Shown: positions 4,804-48,255 of the stretch, piece by piece | How positions within the stretch are numbered: the stretch's first letter is position 1 | Layout: every line of letters starts with the position of its first letter | Assembly (NCBI GenBank): GCA_003020985.1 | Contig: PXRM01000026.1 | Location: 95,172 to 159,171 of the forward strand | DNA: 64,000 nucleotides | From: Halobacteriales archaeon QS_4_70_19 | GTDB taxonomy: Archaea > Halobacteriota > Halobacteria > Halobacteriales > Haloarculaceae | Direction: 5' to 3' | Made by a program: the position numbers and the translations under genes | The notes under the pieces: model-generated | Seen by the model: only the letters and a program-made list of their open reading frames with translations | Told to the model about the DNA's origin: nothing | Databases searched by the model: none

Positions 4804-5125
4804 GACGCCACAGGCGTCGCTCGTCGTACCGAGGGAACGGAGTTCCCTCGTCGCTCGCGGGACCGAGGGTCCCGCTCACTCACGAAAGGCGGCTGCGCCG
4901 CCTTTCGAACGACACCGGCACGAGGGCGCGGAGTCCTCGTGAGCAGAGCACGAGGGCCGTGCCGGAACTTGCTCCGGCTGAGTGCCCGAGTTCCGGCCCT
5001 TCCCTGAACGTTCTTTGGCCGAGTGGATTGCCGGCGAAGCCGGCAATCGAATAGCTGGCCGGCTTCGCTGGCCAGCCAGTTCCCGCAGCGGCGCGCTTCG
5101 CGCGCTGCGAGGAGGCCCGAGGCGC
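4804..5125. repeat. Cluster of GC-rich triloop hairpins (element A)
   Basis: The 636-nt gene-free gap 4503-5138 starts with an AT-rich stretch (about 4680-4790) and then holds successive perfect inverted repeats with short loops. Examples are GACGCC-aca-GGCGTC (4804-4818), GAGGGAAC-gga-GTTCCCTC (4831-4849), GCGGGACC-gag-GGTCCCGC (4857-4875), an 11-bp stem with loop TGC (4883-4907) and a 10-bp stem with loop GAA (5026-5048). These are followed by GAATAGCTGGCCGGC and GCGCGC-ttc-GCGCGC. The cluster ends at a poly-A run, CGCAAAAAAGC, which reads as poly-T in the direction of the neighbouring hydrolase gene, whose stop is at 5139. It is related to the cluster at 47106-47336. Any coding role is unlikely. 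Confidence 0.8.
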
Positions 5126-5138
5126 AAAAAAGCTCCCG

Positions 5139-7574
5139 TCAGTCGGCCTCGCCGGGCTGCCCGTTCGCCGGGGTCTCGTCCGGGCTGGGGCCGACGAGCG
5201 GGCCGAGGTCGATGGTGGTGTCGCCGCCGACGACCTCCACCGTCTCGCGGCCGAACGGGCCCGCGAGCGTGAGCGTCGCGATCCCGTCGCTACGGACGAT
5301 GAGCCGGAGGTCCTCGTCGGCCTCCAGGCCGGCCTCCTCGATCCACAGCGTGACGCCGTCGACGTTCTCCAGCTTGACGTGGAGCTCGTTGGCCTCGTCG
5401 TGGACGTGTTCGAAGTCGATCCACTTCGTGCCCTTGCTGATGCGGTGTTGCGGGTCGGTGCCGGTCTCGTGGAAGCTCTCCGGGACCGCCTTGTCGTACC
5501 CCTCGGCGAGCGAGTGCGCGTCGACCAGCCCGTCCTCCTCCTGGTCGCGGACGGTGATGTCGCTGACCCAGTAGGCCTTGTCGTGAGCGAGGCCGAGTGC
5601 GGGCTCGTCGAACTCGGGGTCGCGCCGGTAGGTGACGCGGGTCGGGCCGCGCTTGACCTCGCCGCGGCCGAGGAACGCCGGCGCCCGGTCCCACTTGTCG
5701 CGGACGGCCAGCATCAGGTGGCCCGCCGCGGGGAACACGTCGAGTTGGTGGCGGTAGCCGTGGTTGCGGAGAGTCCGGGCGTAGCTGATGGGCCCGAGGA
5801 CCGGGACCAGCGCGTCTCGGCCGCCGTTCCACAGCAGCATCGGGATGTGCCGGAGGTTGTCCGAGAGGTCGATGGCGTTCTCCTGGTGGGTGGTGAAGAG
5901 GGTGAGGAACTCCCCGCCGCCGCGACCGCCGAGCAGCCGCTGGGTCAGCAGCGGCGGCGACCGGAGCAGGCCGAACGACGGCCCCTCGAGGGGGTCCTCG
6001 GAGGGCGGCGCGACCGCGGAGAACCCGCGGGCGAACAGGTCGGGGTATTTCGCGCTGAGGATCTGGGTGCCGAACCCGCCCATCGAGTAGCCCGCCACCG
6101 TCACCCGGTCGCGGTCGACCTCGTAGCGCGTCTCGAGGTCGCGCCACGCCTCGAACACGTCCACCTCGCCCTCCCGTCGGTACCAGCGCCCGGGGCCGCG
6201 GGCCTGGGGCATCAGGACGATGCCGTCGTTCTCCTCGGCGATGCCCTCGACCAGCCCCGGCATGAAGACGCTGTACTCGTTGTAGTTGCAGCCAAGCGAG
6301 TGGAGCAGCAGCGTCATCGGCGACGGCTCCTCGGGGTCGTGGCCGGGCGGGACGTAGGCGCCGTACGGCTGGATGCGCCCCCAGAACACGTCGTTGTAGG
6401 GGTCGGTCCCCTGGCGGCCGTAGTCGTAGCGTGAGGGGTACAGCATCGTCAGGTAGCCCGTCGTCGGGACGCGGCTGTCGTCGAGCCCCTGGCGGAGCTT
6501 CGCGAAGTCGATGTCGGCGTTGAACCGGGAGATGTCGCGCTCGGCGAGCGCCCGCGCCTGCCCGAACTCGCGCCAGTTCCCCCGCCCGATGGTCCGGGGG
6601 AGCTCGCTGTCCAGTGCGGCGCTCAGCTCGTCGAGGAACGACTGCGTCCCCGGGACCGGTGACAGCCGCCCGACCGTGCTGGTGAGGAACCGGGGGAGCC
6701 CGCCCATCAGGACGTTCCGCGTCGCCTGCGAGAGGCCGAGCAGGTTGAGTTCGTCCTCCTGGAGCGGCTCGTCGAAGCGGAAGCCGACATTGAAGATCGG
6801 CGGCGGGTTCGCCGACGGCCGGGCGCCGCCCGGCAGGTCCTCGGTCGGGTTCTCCCGGGGCTGTTTGAACTGGTCGTTCTCGGGGTCCCAGAGGCCCGTG
6901 CCGAGGTAGTGGCGCCACGTCCCCTGCCCCGGGTCGATGGGTACCTGCACCTCGATCTGGTTGCGCTCGACGTCGACACTCACCCGGTCGTCGTCGAGGC
7001 GCTCGCCGTCGAATTCGGCGCCCGTGCCCCAGGTGACGAGGACGTGGTCCGCGGGGGCGCCCAGGTCGCCCAGGCCGTAGCCCCAGTCGGTCGCGCCGTC
7101 GAGCGGGCCACCCGAGGAGGTGGTGTCGATGCCGAGCGCGATGCCGACCAGGTCCGGTTCGGACATCGAGTTGAGCGTGAAGCGGTAGACGATCTCGTCC
7201 TCCGCGCCGGAGTCGTCGACCCGGCAGCGAAACTCCAGCAGGTCCGCCGCGTTGTAGTGGTAGCGGCTGTGGGCGTTGGGGTAGTACAGGTCGCCGGTGG
7301 CCGGCGAGAAACTCCCGTAGGCGCTGCGGGCGTCCGAGGGCGCCTGCGAGAGCACGGAGCGCTGGTCGGCGCCGTGGTCGTCGAAAATGAAGTCCTGGTA
7401 GATGTACTCGCCGTCCTCGTACGCGGCGGAGCCACAGACCAGGAGCGGGTCGGCCTCCCAGCCGGGGCCGTTCTCGAGCGGCGGCGGCGTCGGGGTCGAC
7501 CCGTACAGCGCGTCGGGGCCCGGTCGGGGCGACGTGGTCGGCAACTCGCCTGGGTCGCCGTGGTCCTCGGCCAT
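5139..7574 (-). CDS. Large alpha/beta hydrolase with N-terminal beta-sandwich module (downstream paralog)
   Basis: An 811-residue protein in three parts. Residues 1-190 form a beta-rich module (opening RPGPDALYG...NGPGWEADPLLVCGSAAYEDGEYIYQD style) resembling surface or carbohydrate-binding modules found with glucodextranases. A linker follows. From about residue 380 there is an alpha/beta-hydrolase/PHB-depolymerase-like domain with LLLHSLGCNYNEY (oxyanion region), nucleophile elbow AGYSMGGFG, an acid in WNGGRDALVPV and histidine in PAAGHLMLA. A C-terminal beta domain ends in VEVVGGDTTIDLG. No signal peptide is visible. Start MAEDHGDPG (7574) fits better than the upstream ATG at 7595. It lies 77 nt behind its paralog and is probably co-transcribed. 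Likely an esterase or peptidase; the substrate is unknown. Confidence 0.85.
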   Translation of the reverse strand: MAEDHGDPGELPTTSPRPGPDALYGSTPTPPPLENGPGWEADPLLVCGSAAYEDGEYIYQDFIFDDHGADQRSVLSQAPSDARSAYGSFSPATGDLYYPNAHSRYHYNAADLLEFRCRVDDSGAEDEIVYRFTLNSMSEPDLVGIALGIDTTSSGGPLDGATDWGYGLGDLGAPADHVLVTWGTGAEFDGERLDDDRVSVDVERNQIEVQVPIDPGQGTWRHYLGTGLWDPENDQFKQPRENPTEDLPGGARPSANPPPIFNVGFRFDEPLQEDELNLLGLSQATRNVLMGGLPRFLTSTVGRLSPVPGTQSFLDELSAALDSELPRTIGRGNWREFGQARALAERDISRFNADIDFAKLRQGLDDSRVPTTGYLTMLYPSRYDYGRQGTDPYNDVFWGRIQPYGAYVPPGHDPEEPSPMTLLLHSLGCNYNEYSVFMPGLVEGIAEENDGIVLMPQARGPGRWYRREGEVDVFEAWRDLETRYEVDRDRVTVAGYSMGGFGTQILSAKYPDLFARGFSAVAPPSEDPLEGPSFGLLRSPPLLTQRLLGGRGGGEFLTLFTTHQENAIDLSDNLRHIPMLLWNGGRDALVPVLGPISYARTLRNHGYRHQLDVFPAAGHLMLAVRDKWDRAPAFLGRGEVKRGPTRVTYRRDPEFDEPALGLAHDKAYWVSDITVRDQEEDGLVDAHSLAEGYDKAVPESFHETGTDPQHRISKGTKWIDFEHVHDEANELHVKLENVDGVTLWIEEAGLEADEDLRLIVRSDGIATLTLAGPFGRETVEVVGGDTTIDLGPLVGPSPDETPANGQPGEAD

Positions 7575-7651
7575 ACCCCTCCTTACCCTCCCCAACTGTA
7601 AATGTGTTTACTCGTTGATCGACAGTGGGTTTTTGTGGAGCCGCGGCCCGG

Positions 7652-10228
7652 TCAGGCGATCGGCTCGACCGTCACCGTCGACCCGTCGCGGTCCTCCCCG
7701 AGGACGACCTCGCGCTCGCCGACCGAACTGGAGAGCACGACGGTCGTCTCGTTGCTCGCGCGGTAGTCGATGCGCAGTTCCGACTCGGGGTCGAGGTTCG
7801 CACCCTCCACGTGGACGGTGACCTCGTCGACGCCCCAGCAGGTGATGTTGAGCGCGTTCGCGGGGGCGTAGCGCTCGTGCCCGTCGCGCGCGTCGTCGTC
7901 GGCCAGGTTCCGCTCCTCGGCCTCCTCGTCGTTGACCCACTCGACGCCGCGGGTGATGTGGGGCTGGGGCCGGCTTCCGGTCCAGTTGAACCGGCGGACG
8001 TTCGGCGCCTCGTAGCCGTCGGCCAGCGTGATGGCGTCGACGCGGCCGCTGGAGAACTCCTCGTGGGCACGGATGCCGTCGATCCAGTACGCCCCGTCGT
8101 GGGTCAGCCCGAACTGGGGGTAGTCGAACTCCGGGACGTGCTTGTACGTGACCCGCTTCGGTTCCGCCTCGCGGTGTCCCTCCGCGACGTACTCCGGGCC
8201 GCCGCTCCACTCGTCGCACGCGGCCAGGATCATGTGCGTGCCGCCGGGGAAGACGTCGATGCGGTGGCGGTAGTCGAACTCGTCCAGTCGTCGGGCGTAG
8301 TTCGCCGGCCCCAGGATGGGGACGAGTGGGTCCGCCGCGCCGTTCCACAGCAGCATCGGGACGTGCCGGAGGTTGTCGGTCAGGCGGAGCGCGTCCTCCG
8401 GCTTGTCGCCGAAGACAGTGACGATGTCGCCGCCCTCCTCGCCGCCGAACAGCCCCGTCATGATCTCCGAGGGCGTCTCCAGCACGCTGTTGGTCGGCCC
8501 CTCCAGGGGGTCCTCGGAGGGGGTCCCGACGATGGAGAACCCGCGCGCGAACACGTCCGGGTGCTTGCCCGCCAGCAGGTGGACGCCGTAGCCGCCCATC
8601 GAGTAGCCGGAGATCGTCACCCGGTCCATGTCGACCTCGTAGCGCCCGCGGAGGTCCCGCATCGCCTCGAACACGTCGAGTTCGGCCTGCCGCTGGTACC
8701 ACAGTCCCGGGCCGCGGGCCTGCGGGGTCATCACGATGGCGCCGTACTCCTCGGCGAAGCCCCGCACGTAGTTGGGCATGAACGTCGCGTACTGGTTGTA
8801 GCAGCAGCCCAGCGAGTGCAACAGGAGCGCCAGCGGCGCCGGCTCCGGGTCCTCGTGGTCGTACGACTCGGGGACGTAGGCGCTGTACGGCTGGATGCGC
8901 CCGTGGAAGACGTTCCGGTTCGGGTCGGCCCCGTCGTGGTCGAACTCGTGGCGCGAGGGGTAGAGGAAGCTCTGGTACCCGCCGGTCGGGAGGTCGCGCT
9001 CGGTCACGTCCGCGCGGAGCTTGCCGAAGTCGATGTCGGCGTGGAACTCGGAGATGTCGCGCTCGGTGAGGGCGAACGCCTGGGCGGTGTCGCGCCAGTT
9101 GCCGTGGCCGAACACGCGCGGGTAGCCGTCCAGATCGCCGACGATCTCGCTCACGTCGTCGGCCAGCCCCAGCGGGTCGAACGGGTTGCCGCCGAGCGGA
9201 TTCTGCAGGCTGTCACCGAGGGCGTCGCCGAGACCCTGGACCCGCCCGAGGAGCCGCTGGGGGTTCTGGACCTCGCTCAGCAGCGTCCCCGGCAGGTCGA
9301 TGCCCATGGAGGTCAGCCGCGGGAGCAGGTCCTCCACGTCGATGTTGCGTGCCATCGGTTCGTCGAAGCGGAAGCCGACGTTGAACACGGGCGGGAGGTC
9401 CTCGGCCCCCGCGCCGCCGCCAGGGTACTCCTCGTCGACGGACTCGCCGACCCGCTTGAACCCCTCGCGCTCACGGTCCCAGAGGCCGACCGCACAGTAG
9501 TGGCGCCACTGCTCCTCGCCGGGGTCGAGCGGGACCTCGACCTCGATCTGGTTGCGCTCGACGTCGACGACGACGCGCTCCTCGTCGAGGGGTTCGCCGT
9601 CGAGTTCGGCGCCCGTCCCCCACGTCACGAGCCGGTGGTCGACGGGGGCGCCCAGGGCGCCCAGGCCGTAGCCCCAGTCGGTCGTCCCCCGTGGCGGACT
9701 CCCGTCGCCGGACGTGTCGATGCCGATGGCGACGGCGGCGGCGTCGGGGGCGCGCATCGTGTTGAGCGTGATGCGGTAGGCGATGCCCTCGTCCGTCGGC
9801 CGGGCGCGGAACTCCAGCAGGTCGGCGGCGTTGTAGGCGTAGCGGTCCTCGTCGCGCGGGTAGTAGTAGTCGCCCGTGGGCTGCTGGTAGACGCCGCCGA
9901 CCCCCTTGGCGCCGTCCGGCGGCTCCGCGAACATCGGCGTCACGTCCGCCCCGTGGTCGTCGAAGACGTAGTCCTGGTAGAGGTACTCCCCGTCGGTGTA
10001 GGCGTCCGCCCCCGACACGAGGAGCGGGTCGGCCTCCCAGCCGGGGCCGTTCTGTAGCACCGGCGGCGTCGGGTTCTCCCCGTACAGCGCGTCCGGGCCG
10101 GGTCGCGGCATCCCGTTCGGGGCGATGTCGTCGCGGCGCTCCTGGGCAGGGGCTGGCTCGGGCGCACCGGCGTCGGCGGCTCCCCCGTCGGCGGCCACCC
10201 CGTCGTCCGCGTTGGCGTCCTCGGTCAT
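7652..10228 (-). CDS. Large alpha/beta hydrolase with N-terminal beta-sandwich module (upstream paralog)
   Basis: An 858-residue paralog of the next gene, alignable over nearly all of its length. Shared features are the opening PRPGPDALYGENPTPP, the WGYGLG and WGTGAELDGE segments, GNWRDTAQAFALTERDIS, YPSRHEF, LLLHSLGCCYNQYATF, nucleophile elbow SGYSMGGYGVHLLAG, WNGAADPLVPILGP and FPGGTHMILAACDEW with the catalytic histidine. It has an extra acidic, Ala/Pro-rich leader of about 40 residues. A TATA-like CGGATAAACG lies about 30 nt before the ATG, which suggests a leaderless transcript covering both paralogs. Tandem duplication is clear; divergence of the loops suggests different substrates. Likely an esterase or peptidase-type hydrolase. 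Confidence 0.85.
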   Translation of the reverse strand: MTEDANADDGVAADGGAADAGAPEPAPAQERRDDIAPNGMPRPGPDALYGENPTPPVLQNGPGWEADPLLVSGADAYTDGEYLYQDYVFDDHGADVTPMFAEPPDGAKGVGGVYQQPTGDYYYPRDEDRYAYNAADLLEFRARPTDEGIAYRITLNTMRAPDAAAVAIGIDTSGDGSPPRGTTDWGYGLGALGAPVDHRLVTWGTGAELDGEPLDEERVVVDVERNQIEVEVPLDPGEEQWRHYCAVGLWDREREGFKRVGESVDEEYPGGGAGAEDLPPVFNVGFRFDEPMARNIDVEDLLPRLTSMGIDLPGTLLSEVQNPQRLLGRVQGLGDALGDSLQNPLGGNPFDPLGLADDVSEIVGDLDGYPRVFGHGNWRDTAQAFALTERDISEFHADIDFGKLRADVTERDLPTGGYQSFLYPSRHEFDHDGADPNRNVFHGRIQPYSAYVPESYDHEDPEPAPLALLLHSLGCCYNQYATFMPNYVRGFAEEYGAIVMTPQARGPGLWYQRQAELDVFEAMRDLRGRYEVDMDRVTISGYSMGGYGVHLLAGKHPDVFARGFSIVGTPSEDPLEGPTNSVLETPSEIMTGLFGGEEGGDIVTVFGDKPEDALRLTDNLRHVPMLLWNGAADPLVPILGPANYARRLDEFDYRHRIDVFPGGTHMILAACDEWSGGPEYVAEGHREAEPKRVTYKHVPEFDYPQFGLTHDGAYWIDGIRAHEEFSSGRVDAITLADGYEAPNVRRFNWTGSRPQPHITRGVEWVNDEEAEERNLADDDARDGHERYAPANALNITCWGVDEVTVHVEGANLDPESELRIDYRASNETTVVLSSSVGEREVVLGEDRDGSTVTVEPIA

Positions 10229-26820: not shown

Positions 26821-26944
26821 TGGGCCCTGCCGGATTTGAACCAGCGACCACCCGGTGTCCCACAGCACCCGCGTCCCGGGCGCGCCCGGTGCCGCAGGCC
26901 ACTGATATGAGCCGGGGGCTCTAACCAGACTAAGCTAAGGGCCC
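26821..26944 (-). tRNA. Intron-containing tRNA with CAU anticodon (elongator Met likely, Ile2 possible)
   Basis: On the minus strand the acceptor stem GGGCCCT (26944-26938) pairs perfectly with AGGGCCC (26828-26822), with discriminator A26821. The D-arm is GCTT...GAGC. The anticodon stem CCCGG/CCGGG encloses CTCATA then A, with an intron of about 49 nt inserted after position 37. The T-arm is GCTGG-TTCAAAT-CCGGC. The intron has its own stem (CCGGGCGCGCCCGG) and would form a bulge-helix-bulge with the exons. CAU could be elongator Met or the agmatidine-modified Ile2. The intron favours elongator Met by analogy with haloarchaea, but identity elements were not tested. Confidence 0.88.
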
Positions 26945-47105: not shown

Positions 47106-47336
47106 GATGCATACCGCGCCTGCGGCGCGGTTTCACCGCTCCGGGCGAAGCGAGGAGCGGCCCTCTTTCTGAACGTCTCTTGGACATCAGAACGCTCTGC
47201 GTTCTGATTGCCCGTGGAATCGCGGAGCAAGTCCACGACGCCGAGTGGTTCGTCGGCGGAGCCGACGAACGAATAGCTGGCCGGCTCTCCGCAGCGGCGC
47301 GCGGAGCGCGCCGCGAGGAAGCCCGAGGCGGAGAAA
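47106..47336. repeat. Cluster of GC-rich triloop hairpins (element B)
   Basis: In the gene-free gap 46898-47339 a series of perfect inverted repeats with 3-nt loops occurs: ACCGCGCC-tgc-GGCGCGGT (47113-47131), ATCAGAACGC-tct-GCGTTCTGAT (47186-47208), GTTCGTCGGC-gga-GCCGACGAAC (47248-47270) and GCGGCGCGC-gga-GCGCGCCGC (47294-47314). A longer-loop CCGCTCC...GGAGCGG is also present. CCGAGTGG before the third hairpin and CGAATAGCTGGCCGGC after it are identical to the flanks of the 10-bp hairpin at 5026-5048, although the stem sequences differ. The cluster stops four bases from the stop codon of the minus-strand gene at 47340. Confidence 0.8.
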
Positions 47337-47339
47337 CGT

Positions 47340-47933
47340 TCAGGGGTACGAGGACGCCTGCCAGCGGCCGTTCTCGTAGGTGACGACCGTGTCGAACAGG
47401 GAGGTGAGGGTGGCGACGGTGCGGCCGTCGTGCTCGCCGGGGTCGAGGTGGTAGTGGGCGACCGCGCCGGTCGCCTTCACCCGGTTGACGAGGACGTGGA
47501 GGAAGCGGAACACGCGCTTCAGGTCGACGTACTCCAGCAGGACGGTGAGCGACTCGAAGATGAGCAGCGAGTCGGGACTCCAGTCGGTGAGCCGCTCGCT
47601 GATGGTGATCCCCAGGCCGGTCAGGTCCGCCGGCTCCTCGACGATGCGCTCGACGTCCGCCCCCGTACCGTCGCGCTGGACCTCCTCGACCAGCACCGCC
47701 CGCTCGAGCGGCTCCCCGAACCGGTTCCAGTCGTCCAGCCACCGGGCCGGGTCGTCGATGAACGAGACGACGAGGAGGTTGGCCAGGTCGGGAGCGACCA
47801 GCTCCTCCAGATACGAGCCACGGGCGTCGCTATCGAGCCGCTCGGAGAGGACCAGCACGTTCGCAGCGCCGGCGAGGTCGGAGCCGTCCCCCCCTTCGGA
47901 GTCTCCCACCTCGGCCGATTCCCCCGCCGACAT
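47340..47933 (-). CDS. DUF7504-type (RecA-fold-like) haloarchaeal protein
   Basis: A 197-residue protein with an acidic Ser/Gly leader, then alternating strands and helices: ANVLVLSERLDSDARGSYLEEL, ANLLVVSFIDDPARWLDDW, LTGLGITISERLTDW, SLLIFESLTVLLEYVDLKRVFRFL and AVAHYHLDPGEHDGRTVATLTSLFDTVVTY. This is the pattern of a RecA/KaiC-like fold without a Walker A motif, as in the haloarchaeal DUF7504/HTR-like family. No ATPase activity is expected. ATG 47933 follows a GTG codon, either of which could start. Function unknown; sometimes linked to signal transduction. Confidence 0.7.
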   Translation of the reverse strand: MSAGESAEVGDSEGGDGSDLAGAANVLVLSERLDSDARGSYLEELVAPDLANLLVVSFIDDPARWLDDWNRFGEPLERAVLVEEVQRDGTGADVERIVEEPADLTGLGITISERLTDWSPDSLLIFESLTVLLEYVDLKRVFRFLHVLVNRVKATGAVAHYHLDPGEHDGRTVATLTSLFDTVVTYENGRWQASSYP

Positions 47934-48150
47934 CACGTGCCCGGTACCGCGGCCGCCGGTATAAAGACGGTGCTTATCGGAGCAACATAAGGGCCCGGAG
48001 TCCGCCGGTCACTGAGCGTCGACCGCTGTGACGGGCGAAACGGGGCGGAGGCGTCCCGAACCACGGGCCGGAGGGGGTCCCGTTGTTCTGACGGTGATGT
48101 ACCCCCCGTTGCCGGGGCCGCGCCGCCCCCGGAATCCCGGTTCCGAAACC

Positions 48151-48182: not shown

Positions 48183-48255
48183 GTCCGGTTAGGGTAGTGG
48201 ACTATCCTCTTGGCTTGCGGAGCCAGGGACCAGCGTTCAAATCGCTGACCGGACG
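48183..48255 (+). tRNA. tRNA-Arg (anticodon GCG)
   Basis: A 73-nt cloverleaf. Acceptor GTCCGGT pairs with ACCGGAC, with discriminator G48255. The D-arm contains TAGGGTAGTGGACTATCCT. The anticodon stem TTGGC/GCCAG holds TTGCGGA, giving anticodon GCG, which reads CGC and CGU. The T-arm is CAGCG-TTCAAAT-CGCTG. No intron and no encoded CCA. It is followed by TCTCT, a weak T-rich stop. Confidence 0.96.

Follow-up and report, generated by a model that had tools for sequence, protein, structure and literature searches.

Introduction

The signals that end haloarchaeal genes are known mainly as T stretches. Among repeated palindromes, those of the REP type carry a GTAG or CGTC tag at their foot. The available part of a study on Haloferax volcanii also names T stretches as haloarchaeal gene-ending signals, and describes the terminators of this species as T stretches, AGATC and hairpin clusters; there, an insert of T5C gave 95% termination and one hairpin from a coding region gave 59% (PMC7237163). 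Terminators composed of inverted uptake sequences are described for Haemophilus influenzae in the accessible portion of another paper (PMC5217627), and the string 'halo' does not occur in the available text of a paper on REP-type sequences (PMC12306157).

We describe here two clusters of hairpins, A and B, found in a 64-kb stretch of haloarchaeal DNA (the window, meaning the whole of the stretch that was analysed), together with the related sequences that lie at gene ends in many other genomes. A previous sequence-only reading of the window knew of no named family with such features. In this line, Rfam 15 gave no match at A or B at the gathering score, and a search of 12 loci at a lax threshold returned two weak matches below that score, neither of them on the element. 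Moreover, no description of the element was found in the titles and abstract starts of open-licence PubMed Central articles among the matches listed, which is weak evidence of novelty.

Hairpin clusters A and B

Element A (4804-5105) contains eight perfect hairpins with stems of at least 6 bp (loops of 3-8 nt were searched), six of which are triloops (ACA, GGA, GAG, TGC, GAA and TTC), the remaining two having loops of 6 and 7 nt. Element B (47113-47314) contains four, all of them triloops (TGC, TCT, GGA and GGA). Perfect stems of at least 10 bp occur five times in the window, four of them inside A and B, against a mean of 1.5 per window-length sequence in ten first-order Markov sequences. The succession of hairpins, mostly with triloops, had been noticed in the sequence-only reading and is confirmed by these counts; its description of successive perfect hairpins needs correction in that the second core hairpin of A (hp2, 5054-5076) has one G.T pair, the equivalent hairpin of B (47276-47285) has lost its 3' arm, and each cluster includes stretches that are not simple hairpins. 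Around the first core hairpin, hp1, the two clusters have the flanks CCGAGTGG and CGAATAGCTGGCCGGC in common, whereas its stem reads ATTGCCGGC in A and TTCGTCGGC in B, with three of nine pairs changed and all three compensated. Both clusters adjoin a minus-strand stop codon (TCA at 5139-5141 for A and TCA at 47340-47342 for B). The common flanks, the compensated changes and the neighbouring stops are present exactly as that reading had given them.

All features of A lie on the plus strand. Its left part (4804-4996) corresponds, as compared by eye with uninterrupted copies, to a region of two hairpins, hpA and hpB, enlarged by nested triloop hairpins (4804-4818, 4830-4850, 4857-4875 and 4883-4907) and by further hairpins (4935-4955 and 4961-4978). 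The following segment (4997-5016), read against other copies, comprises a degenerate first T-run (4997-5003), the linker CTGAACG (5004-5010) and a second T-run, TTCTTT (5011-5016). A closing stem with a conserved GAG (GGCCGAGT, 5017-5024) precedes the module that we call M1 (5027-5079; E value of 5e-19 with the R1 model described below), which is built of hp1 (5027-5035/5039-5047), the link CGAATA (5048-5053) and hp2 (5054-5063/5067-5076). A third hairpin, hp3 (5088-5109), comes next, and finally an A-run with GCTC (5126-5135), which on the minus strand reads GAGCTTTTTT and lies 3 nt past the stop codon of a prolyl-oligopeptidase-type hydrolase gene (5139-7595, minus strand) whose end abuts A.

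Cluster B, equally on the plus strand, keeps a shorter left part (47113-47160) with hpA (47113-47131), TTCACC and hpB (47136-47160), and then a segment (47163-47181) with a first T-rich run, the same linker CTGAACG (47169-47175) and a second T-rich run (47176-47181); as in A, the T-runs are degenerate. Another module, M3 (47184-47239), consists of a hairpin (47186-47208) and a partly decayed second one, and was also read at loci L003, L123 and L132. M1 follows in truncated form (47249-47287; R1 model, E 9e-10), with hp1 at 47249-47257/47261-47269 and hp2 without its 3' arm. Hairpin hp3 (47294-47314) and an A-rich run (47331-47336) complete the cluster beside the stop codon of a DUF7504 gene (47340-47936, minus strand). 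The inserted modules are thus M1 in A, and M3 with a truncated M1 in B.

Other observations in the window concern its genes. The hydrolase gene next to A has as its neighbour another large hydrolase-like gene on the same strand (7652-10228, minus; 818 and 858 aa), and the pair looks like a tandem duplication, to judge from the DNA identity of 70-78% in blocks. An Rfam tRNA match on the minus strand (26821-26944), absent from the ARAGORN output, spans 124 bases and is therefore probably an intron-containing tRNA; a tRNA-Arg given by ARAGORN at 48183-48255 is absent from the Rfam list for the window.

A family of elements at gene ends

In its simple form, the element has the order hpA, GTTTCACC, hpB, T-run, linker, T-run, stem, P3 hairpin and A-run, and the stop codon of the opposite-strand gene lies a few nt beyond the A-run. 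The base element, as seen in insert-free copies from congeners, shows two T-runs 7-8 nt apart, a short stem, GAG with one unpaired base and then P3 (GGTTCG..GGC-nnn-GCC..CGAACC), after which come CGA, the second arm of the stem, the A-run and the opposite-strand stop codon; hpA, GTTTCACC and hpB stand to its left.

Two covariance models were built. The first, R1, covers 70 nt and ten copies, nine from the window's own genome and one from a congener. In this core alignment 97.4% of the cells pair and five pairs vary on both sides; none of 500 shuffles reached its covariation score, and the number of further pair types was not exceptional (253 of 500 shuffles). The second, R2, describes the simple form with 12 copies and 22 pairs. 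Its covariation score of 0.241 compares with 0.088 ± 0.018 in shuffled alignments (0 of 500 reached it) and with at most 0.090 when partners were slid; neither the pairs with both sides changed (six against 4.7; 131 of 500 shuffles) nor the further pair types (93 of 500) were exceptional. The column pairs 29-66 and 30-65 of R2 are Watson-Crick in eight of the 12 copies and form tandem G.A in the remaining four, and the inner CGAG/CGAG is nearly invariant. Inserts disrupt A and B, which for this reason score weakly with the simple-form model: 8.5e-5 for A over its whole length, and 4.2e-5 for B, where the match spans a single hairpin.

The linker before the second T-run pairs with bases past the A-run: the mean complementary run was 3.14, against 2.59 ± 0.11 after permutation (0 of 1000), in 44 distinct linker/partner classes from 95 copies (the 98 described below minus three that could not be parsed). 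A U.A-U triple helix, which the order T-run, T-run, A-run also brought to mind, was set aside since this pairing makes one long stem the simpler reading. A small number of linker tags recur between the T-runs of a genome, as if marking subclasses; they are CTGAACG, GGTGCAGA and CCGCAAG in the elements of G001-G003, and CGCCCACG, CCCCAAG, GGTCCAG and CATCGACG elsewhere.

The genome from which the window comes (2.84 Mb, 82% complete) contains five copies of an exact 16-mer of the core. A search for this 16-mer with up to one mismatch reached 16 of 59 genomes, the own one included, and most matches outside the genus looked coding and were dropped. With R1, the own genome gave 49 rows at E ≤1, mirror matches of the palindrome included; reading of all but the weakest rows left 23 distinct sites taken as real, 19 of them at gene ends (two decayed) and four in a second context called type II (see below), and two further rows lay in coding sequence. 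Both models match all four genomes of the genus, R2 with at least 17-49 matches per genome, mirror-strand matches included; such counts are lower bounds, as 57-150 candidates were scored per genome. At E 1e-3, R2 matched 56 of the 57 genomes of the family and all of its 22 genera, and at E 1e-6 it matched 52 of the 79 genomes of the order, the other 27 having no match at this threshold. In a sample of the phylum, nine of 11 genomes of the order matched and none of the 69 outside it did. Loci read in further genera of the family (25) and in other families or genera (13) had the same layout. Moreover, the loose pattern TTTTT-N6-9-TTTTT-N2-5-GAGNGG gave 593 matches in 57 genomes against 25 for its reversed control (T6 runs counted twice), and a stricter exact pattern found 57 stretches among 84,980 species, all of them haloarchaeal as labelled (Haloarcula, Halorientalis, Salinibaculum, Halosimplex, Halomicroarcula, Halobellus, Halohasta and others). 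Cultured species that contain this exact pattern include Haloarcula vallismortis and Haloarcula japonica. In this way, the covariance-model search advanced by the sequence-only reading found many copies, at gene ends and with covarying stems.

Tandem arrays of the gene-end element were seen as well, at L193 (G065:C2:819250-819948), at G017:C1:2703782-2705398 and at L251, with a nearly fixed spacing of 154 bp over at least six copies or of 171 bp over at least ten. Each repeat of the L193 array seemingly includes the 3' end of a gene.

Position and inheritance in place

At the 55 best-scoring loci, a minus-strand stop codon lies from -12 to +20 nt of the right end of the core in 45 cases, a plus-strand stop lies within 120 nt to the left in 16, and five have neither. 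One of these five, L203, abuts a tRNA-Arg gene; L206 seemed on reading by eye to do likewise, but ARAGORN gave no tRNA there. Among 94 copies from three congeners (119 rows minus 20 taken as mirror-strand palindrome matches and five unused sites), a stop codon stands within 25 nt, in one orientation, in 87 (27 of 29, 25 of 28 and 35 of 37), and a plus-strand stop within 150 nt on the left in 24. On the gene strand, a run of four or more T follows the stop in 76 of the 88 copies with a called stop, at a median of 6 nt (range 2-16). Runs of four or more T occur on both strands in 97 of 98 copies (111 aligned matches minus 13 mirrors or near-duplicates), a count that is not independent because the T-runs belong to the model that found the copies; four or more T and then C were seen on the plus strand of 85 of the 98 and on the minus strand of 77.

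Among the right-hand genes of the three congeners, 27 of 50 groups carry the element in at least two genomes and nine in all three; these counts are minima, since only orthologs with a match were looked at. Retention extends across genera or families for glutamine synthetase (L204 against L168 and L167), PhoU (L269 against L041 and L151), prolyl-tRNA synthetase (L182 against L175) and a GTPase (L264 against L159). One member of each of these four groups was named by Pfam, and protein identity is 65-82% across and 86-95% within the genus. At L025 of the own genome and L062 of G002, the flanks on either side can be aligned (83-87%), unlike the element that they enclose. As copies are kept beside orthologous genes, the base element has been inherited in place at these loci.

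Inserted modules

Minimal copies read GAGTGG-TTCCC, against GAGTGG-[hp1-CGAATAG-hp2-CCGG]-TTCCC in expanded ones. In the one case found of an insertion in coding sequence, M1 (about 52 nt) breaks up a MaoC-like gene of G001 whose counterpart in the congener G003 is intact; a stop codon lies inside the insert and the reading frame changes after it, so this is no in-frame insertion. The boundaries at the MaoC site, ambiguous by 1-2 nt and with no terminal inverted repeat seen by eye, equal those of M1 in A. Likewise, one orthologous element whose two flanks are 91-92% identical holds M1 in G003 (L064/L145) and a plain P3 plus M3 in G002 (L123). M1 has thus entered a protein gene, and orthologous copies of one element are not alike in M1 and M3, so that the serial triloop hairpins seen in A and B are to be taken as insertions; on these sequence comparisons, the core hairpins are later additions in and beside P3, and the same is judged by eye for the hpB region and the left part of A. 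To our knowledge, few mobile modules are smaller than this double hairpin of about 52 nt, which is seen with both a filled and an empty site. M1 mostly carries ATAG before hp2, and by eye GTAG in a few copies.

M1 sits in two different multi-copy contexts, the gene-end element and type II. The latter is a second multi-copy sequence in which AAAGCCCCCGCCCGCTCGACC and GGTCGAGCGG form a long-range stem, followed by the M1 double hairpin and CCCCTTTCAGTCCC. It was read at L044, L046, L047, L048, L065, L066, L071 and L075 (G000-G003); its start (query end 758-801) repeats at many places in G001-G003, and Rfam gave no match to it at the gathering score. The idea that type II is the right end of a TnpB/IS605 element was dropped, as no transposase was recognised in the open frames of the eight loci (the six longest of each, truncated to 300 aa). 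At L044/L029 (G000:C16 near 65908), an M1 hairpin is accompanied by a direct repeat of about 31 nt, CTTTCAGTTCCACCCTGTTGCCTGATTCACC, present twice with a 34-nt spacer, which gives the look of a minimal CRISPR but may be a duplication within type II; the CRISPR reading was set aside, there being no more than these two copies of the repeat. An integron attC site was also discarded, the copies being dispersed and no cassette array being seen.

Strand of the fold

RNA stems tolerate G-U pairs. P3 hairpins were counted when at least 70% of their pairs were Watson-Crick; in the 72 distinct hairpins so kept (674 pairs), the exceptions were eight G.T, seven A.C, 12 G.A and 12 A.G (tandem), and one each of C.T, C.C, G.G and A.A. 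An earlier count of 14 G.T and 29 A.C was apparently too high owing to one class of stems with a bulged A, and 8 against 7 is the recount for simple P3. The lack of a G.T excess over A.C argues against selection for an RNA stem.

P3 loops on the plus strand are GNA in 35 cases and TNC in ten, the rest being other; in a smaller set GNA outnumbered TNC by 17 to 1 in genomes beyond the genus and by 10 to 6 inside it. Counts of the motif GA-xy-GNA-y'x'-GA in the left part and core of the element gave, for the congeners, 80 on the plus strand and two on the minus strand, and elsewhere 59 and four (88 'other genera' items, which include eight tandem copies of the L251 array and some copies under two loci); in the flanks the same counts are 6 against 6 and 82 against 48. 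It is the strand complementary to the mRNA of the adjacent gene that carries nearly all of the tandem G.A motifs and most of the GNA loops. Computed with DNA parameters, the folding energies favour the plus strand of a simple copy (L136; -26.4 against -23.2 kcal/mol), and do so only slightly for A (-45.8 against -44.8) and B (-42.9 against -41.6). Taken as it stands, the strand bias says that the best-folding strand would be the complement of the adjacent gene's RNA. In DNA, loops of the GNA type that contain a sheared G-A pair are described as very stable in the available part of one source (PMC6479982).

Proposed role and alternatives

A and B belong to a haloarchaeal gene-end family whose members, from position and sequence, probably act as bidirectional transcription terminators or insulators. 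RNA polymerase completing the adjacent gene would stop at the T-run past the stop codon, and transcripts arriving from the other side would meet hpB and then a T-run. Such a role is favoured by the position at gene ends, the T-runs on both strands and the retention at orthologous genes, and further by the covariation score, the linker pairing and the range of the family. Points against it are the unexceptional counts of doubly changed pairs and further pair types in R2, the weak scores and degenerate T-runs of A and B, the 27 genomes of the order with no match at E 1e-6, and L206. In addition, the T-run of the gene strand comes ahead of the hairpin, opposite to the order in bacterial intrinsic terminators (the order of a hairpin followed by a T-run was not found on the strand of the served gene, and hpB with its T-run gives it only for plus-strand transcripts), and the strand bias of G.A motifs and GNA loops is not predicted by a plain RNA-hairpin terminator. 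A wider proposal, which we put forward as a tentative possibility, is that of a class-wide gene-end family in which folds of the template-strand DNA, with C(GNA)G triloops and sheared G.A pairs in CGAG/CGAG, would end or insulate transcription instead of an RNA hairpin, and would serve as landing pads for mobile double hairpins of about 52 nt that build the clusters.

The strand-specific hairpins, the missing G.T excess and the stability of DNA GNA loops would also suit a REP-like element of single-stranded DNA, the folded strand being the substrate of a tyrosine (HUH, Y1) transposase and the copies having spread by transposition, with insertions at gene ends tolerated and then kept. M1, which moves and has two multi-copy contexts, also speaks for this; yet the base copies are kept at orthologous genes, with four examples across genera or families, their distances to the stop fall in a narrow range unlike that of free transposition, and no transposase was recognised in the open frames read at eight type II loci, all of which makes this origin unlikely. 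Covarying stems located past stop codons are what would be expected from selection for an RNA fold, either in a structured 3'-UTR of the adjacent gene or in an antisense RNA from the other strand, but G.T and A.C are equally rare in P3, Rfam has no match at the element, and the tandem G.A motifs lie on the strand absent from the adjacent gene's mRNA, which counts against a 3'-UTR and not against an antisense RNA; we regard selection at the RNA level as rather improbable. Finally, some copies have an identical hp1 stem with the loop TCC and others with its reverse complement GGA, as would be expected of functionless DNA hairpins that intra-strand template switching (quasi-palindrome correction) keeps perfect. 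A neutral leftover of this sort is hardly credible for the family, however, given its retention at orthologous genes with T-runs and linker pairing. The sequence-only reading had opposed a structured 3'-UTR or small RNA to a mobile hairpin-copying repeat. Both halves survive in part as two layers, an inherited gene-end base structure and mobile hairpin inserts, whereas the 3'-UTR or small RNA itself lacks the wobble sign and faces G.A motifs on the complement of the mRNA.

A two-sided element of this kind, conserved beside the same genes in different genera and families, would provide a gene-end signal that can be tested and would also serve the annotation of transcription-unit ends. The strand-specific hairpins of DNA type raise the question of whether a fold of the template strand acts on the archaeal RNA polymerase, and the double hairpin with its filled and empty site offers a way into how palindromes move and stay perfect.

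Comparison with known systems

The element shares with REP, BIME and REPIN sequences the nature of a short extragenic palindrome with many copies per genome, near gene 3' ends and in mosaic arrays, but differs from them in its single orientation, its narrow distance to the stop codon and its conservation at orthologous genes. M1 recalls the Rickettsia palindromic elements in being a palindromic module inside a protein gene, although it has about 52 nt and breaks the reading frame. Bacterial intrinsic (Rho-independent) terminators and hairpin-cluster terminators likewise combine a GC-rich hairpin with a T-run, as does, by eye, hpB with its T-run on the plus strand; in contrast to intrinsic terminators, the T-run of the adjacent gene precedes P3, the sequence joints are conserved and both strands are involved. 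A repeated sequence tag within a gene-end hairpin is also found in the inverted-uptake-sequence terminators of H. influenzae, as given in the accessible portion of the paper (PMC5217627), whereas the haloarchaeal tag differs between genera. There is also a parallel with the T-stretch (T5C) terminators of Haloferax volcanii, where a T-run and then C are placed just past genes; unlike those terminators as described in the available text (PMC7237163), the element analysed here is a two-sided composite with paired T- and A-runs, linker pairing and inserts.
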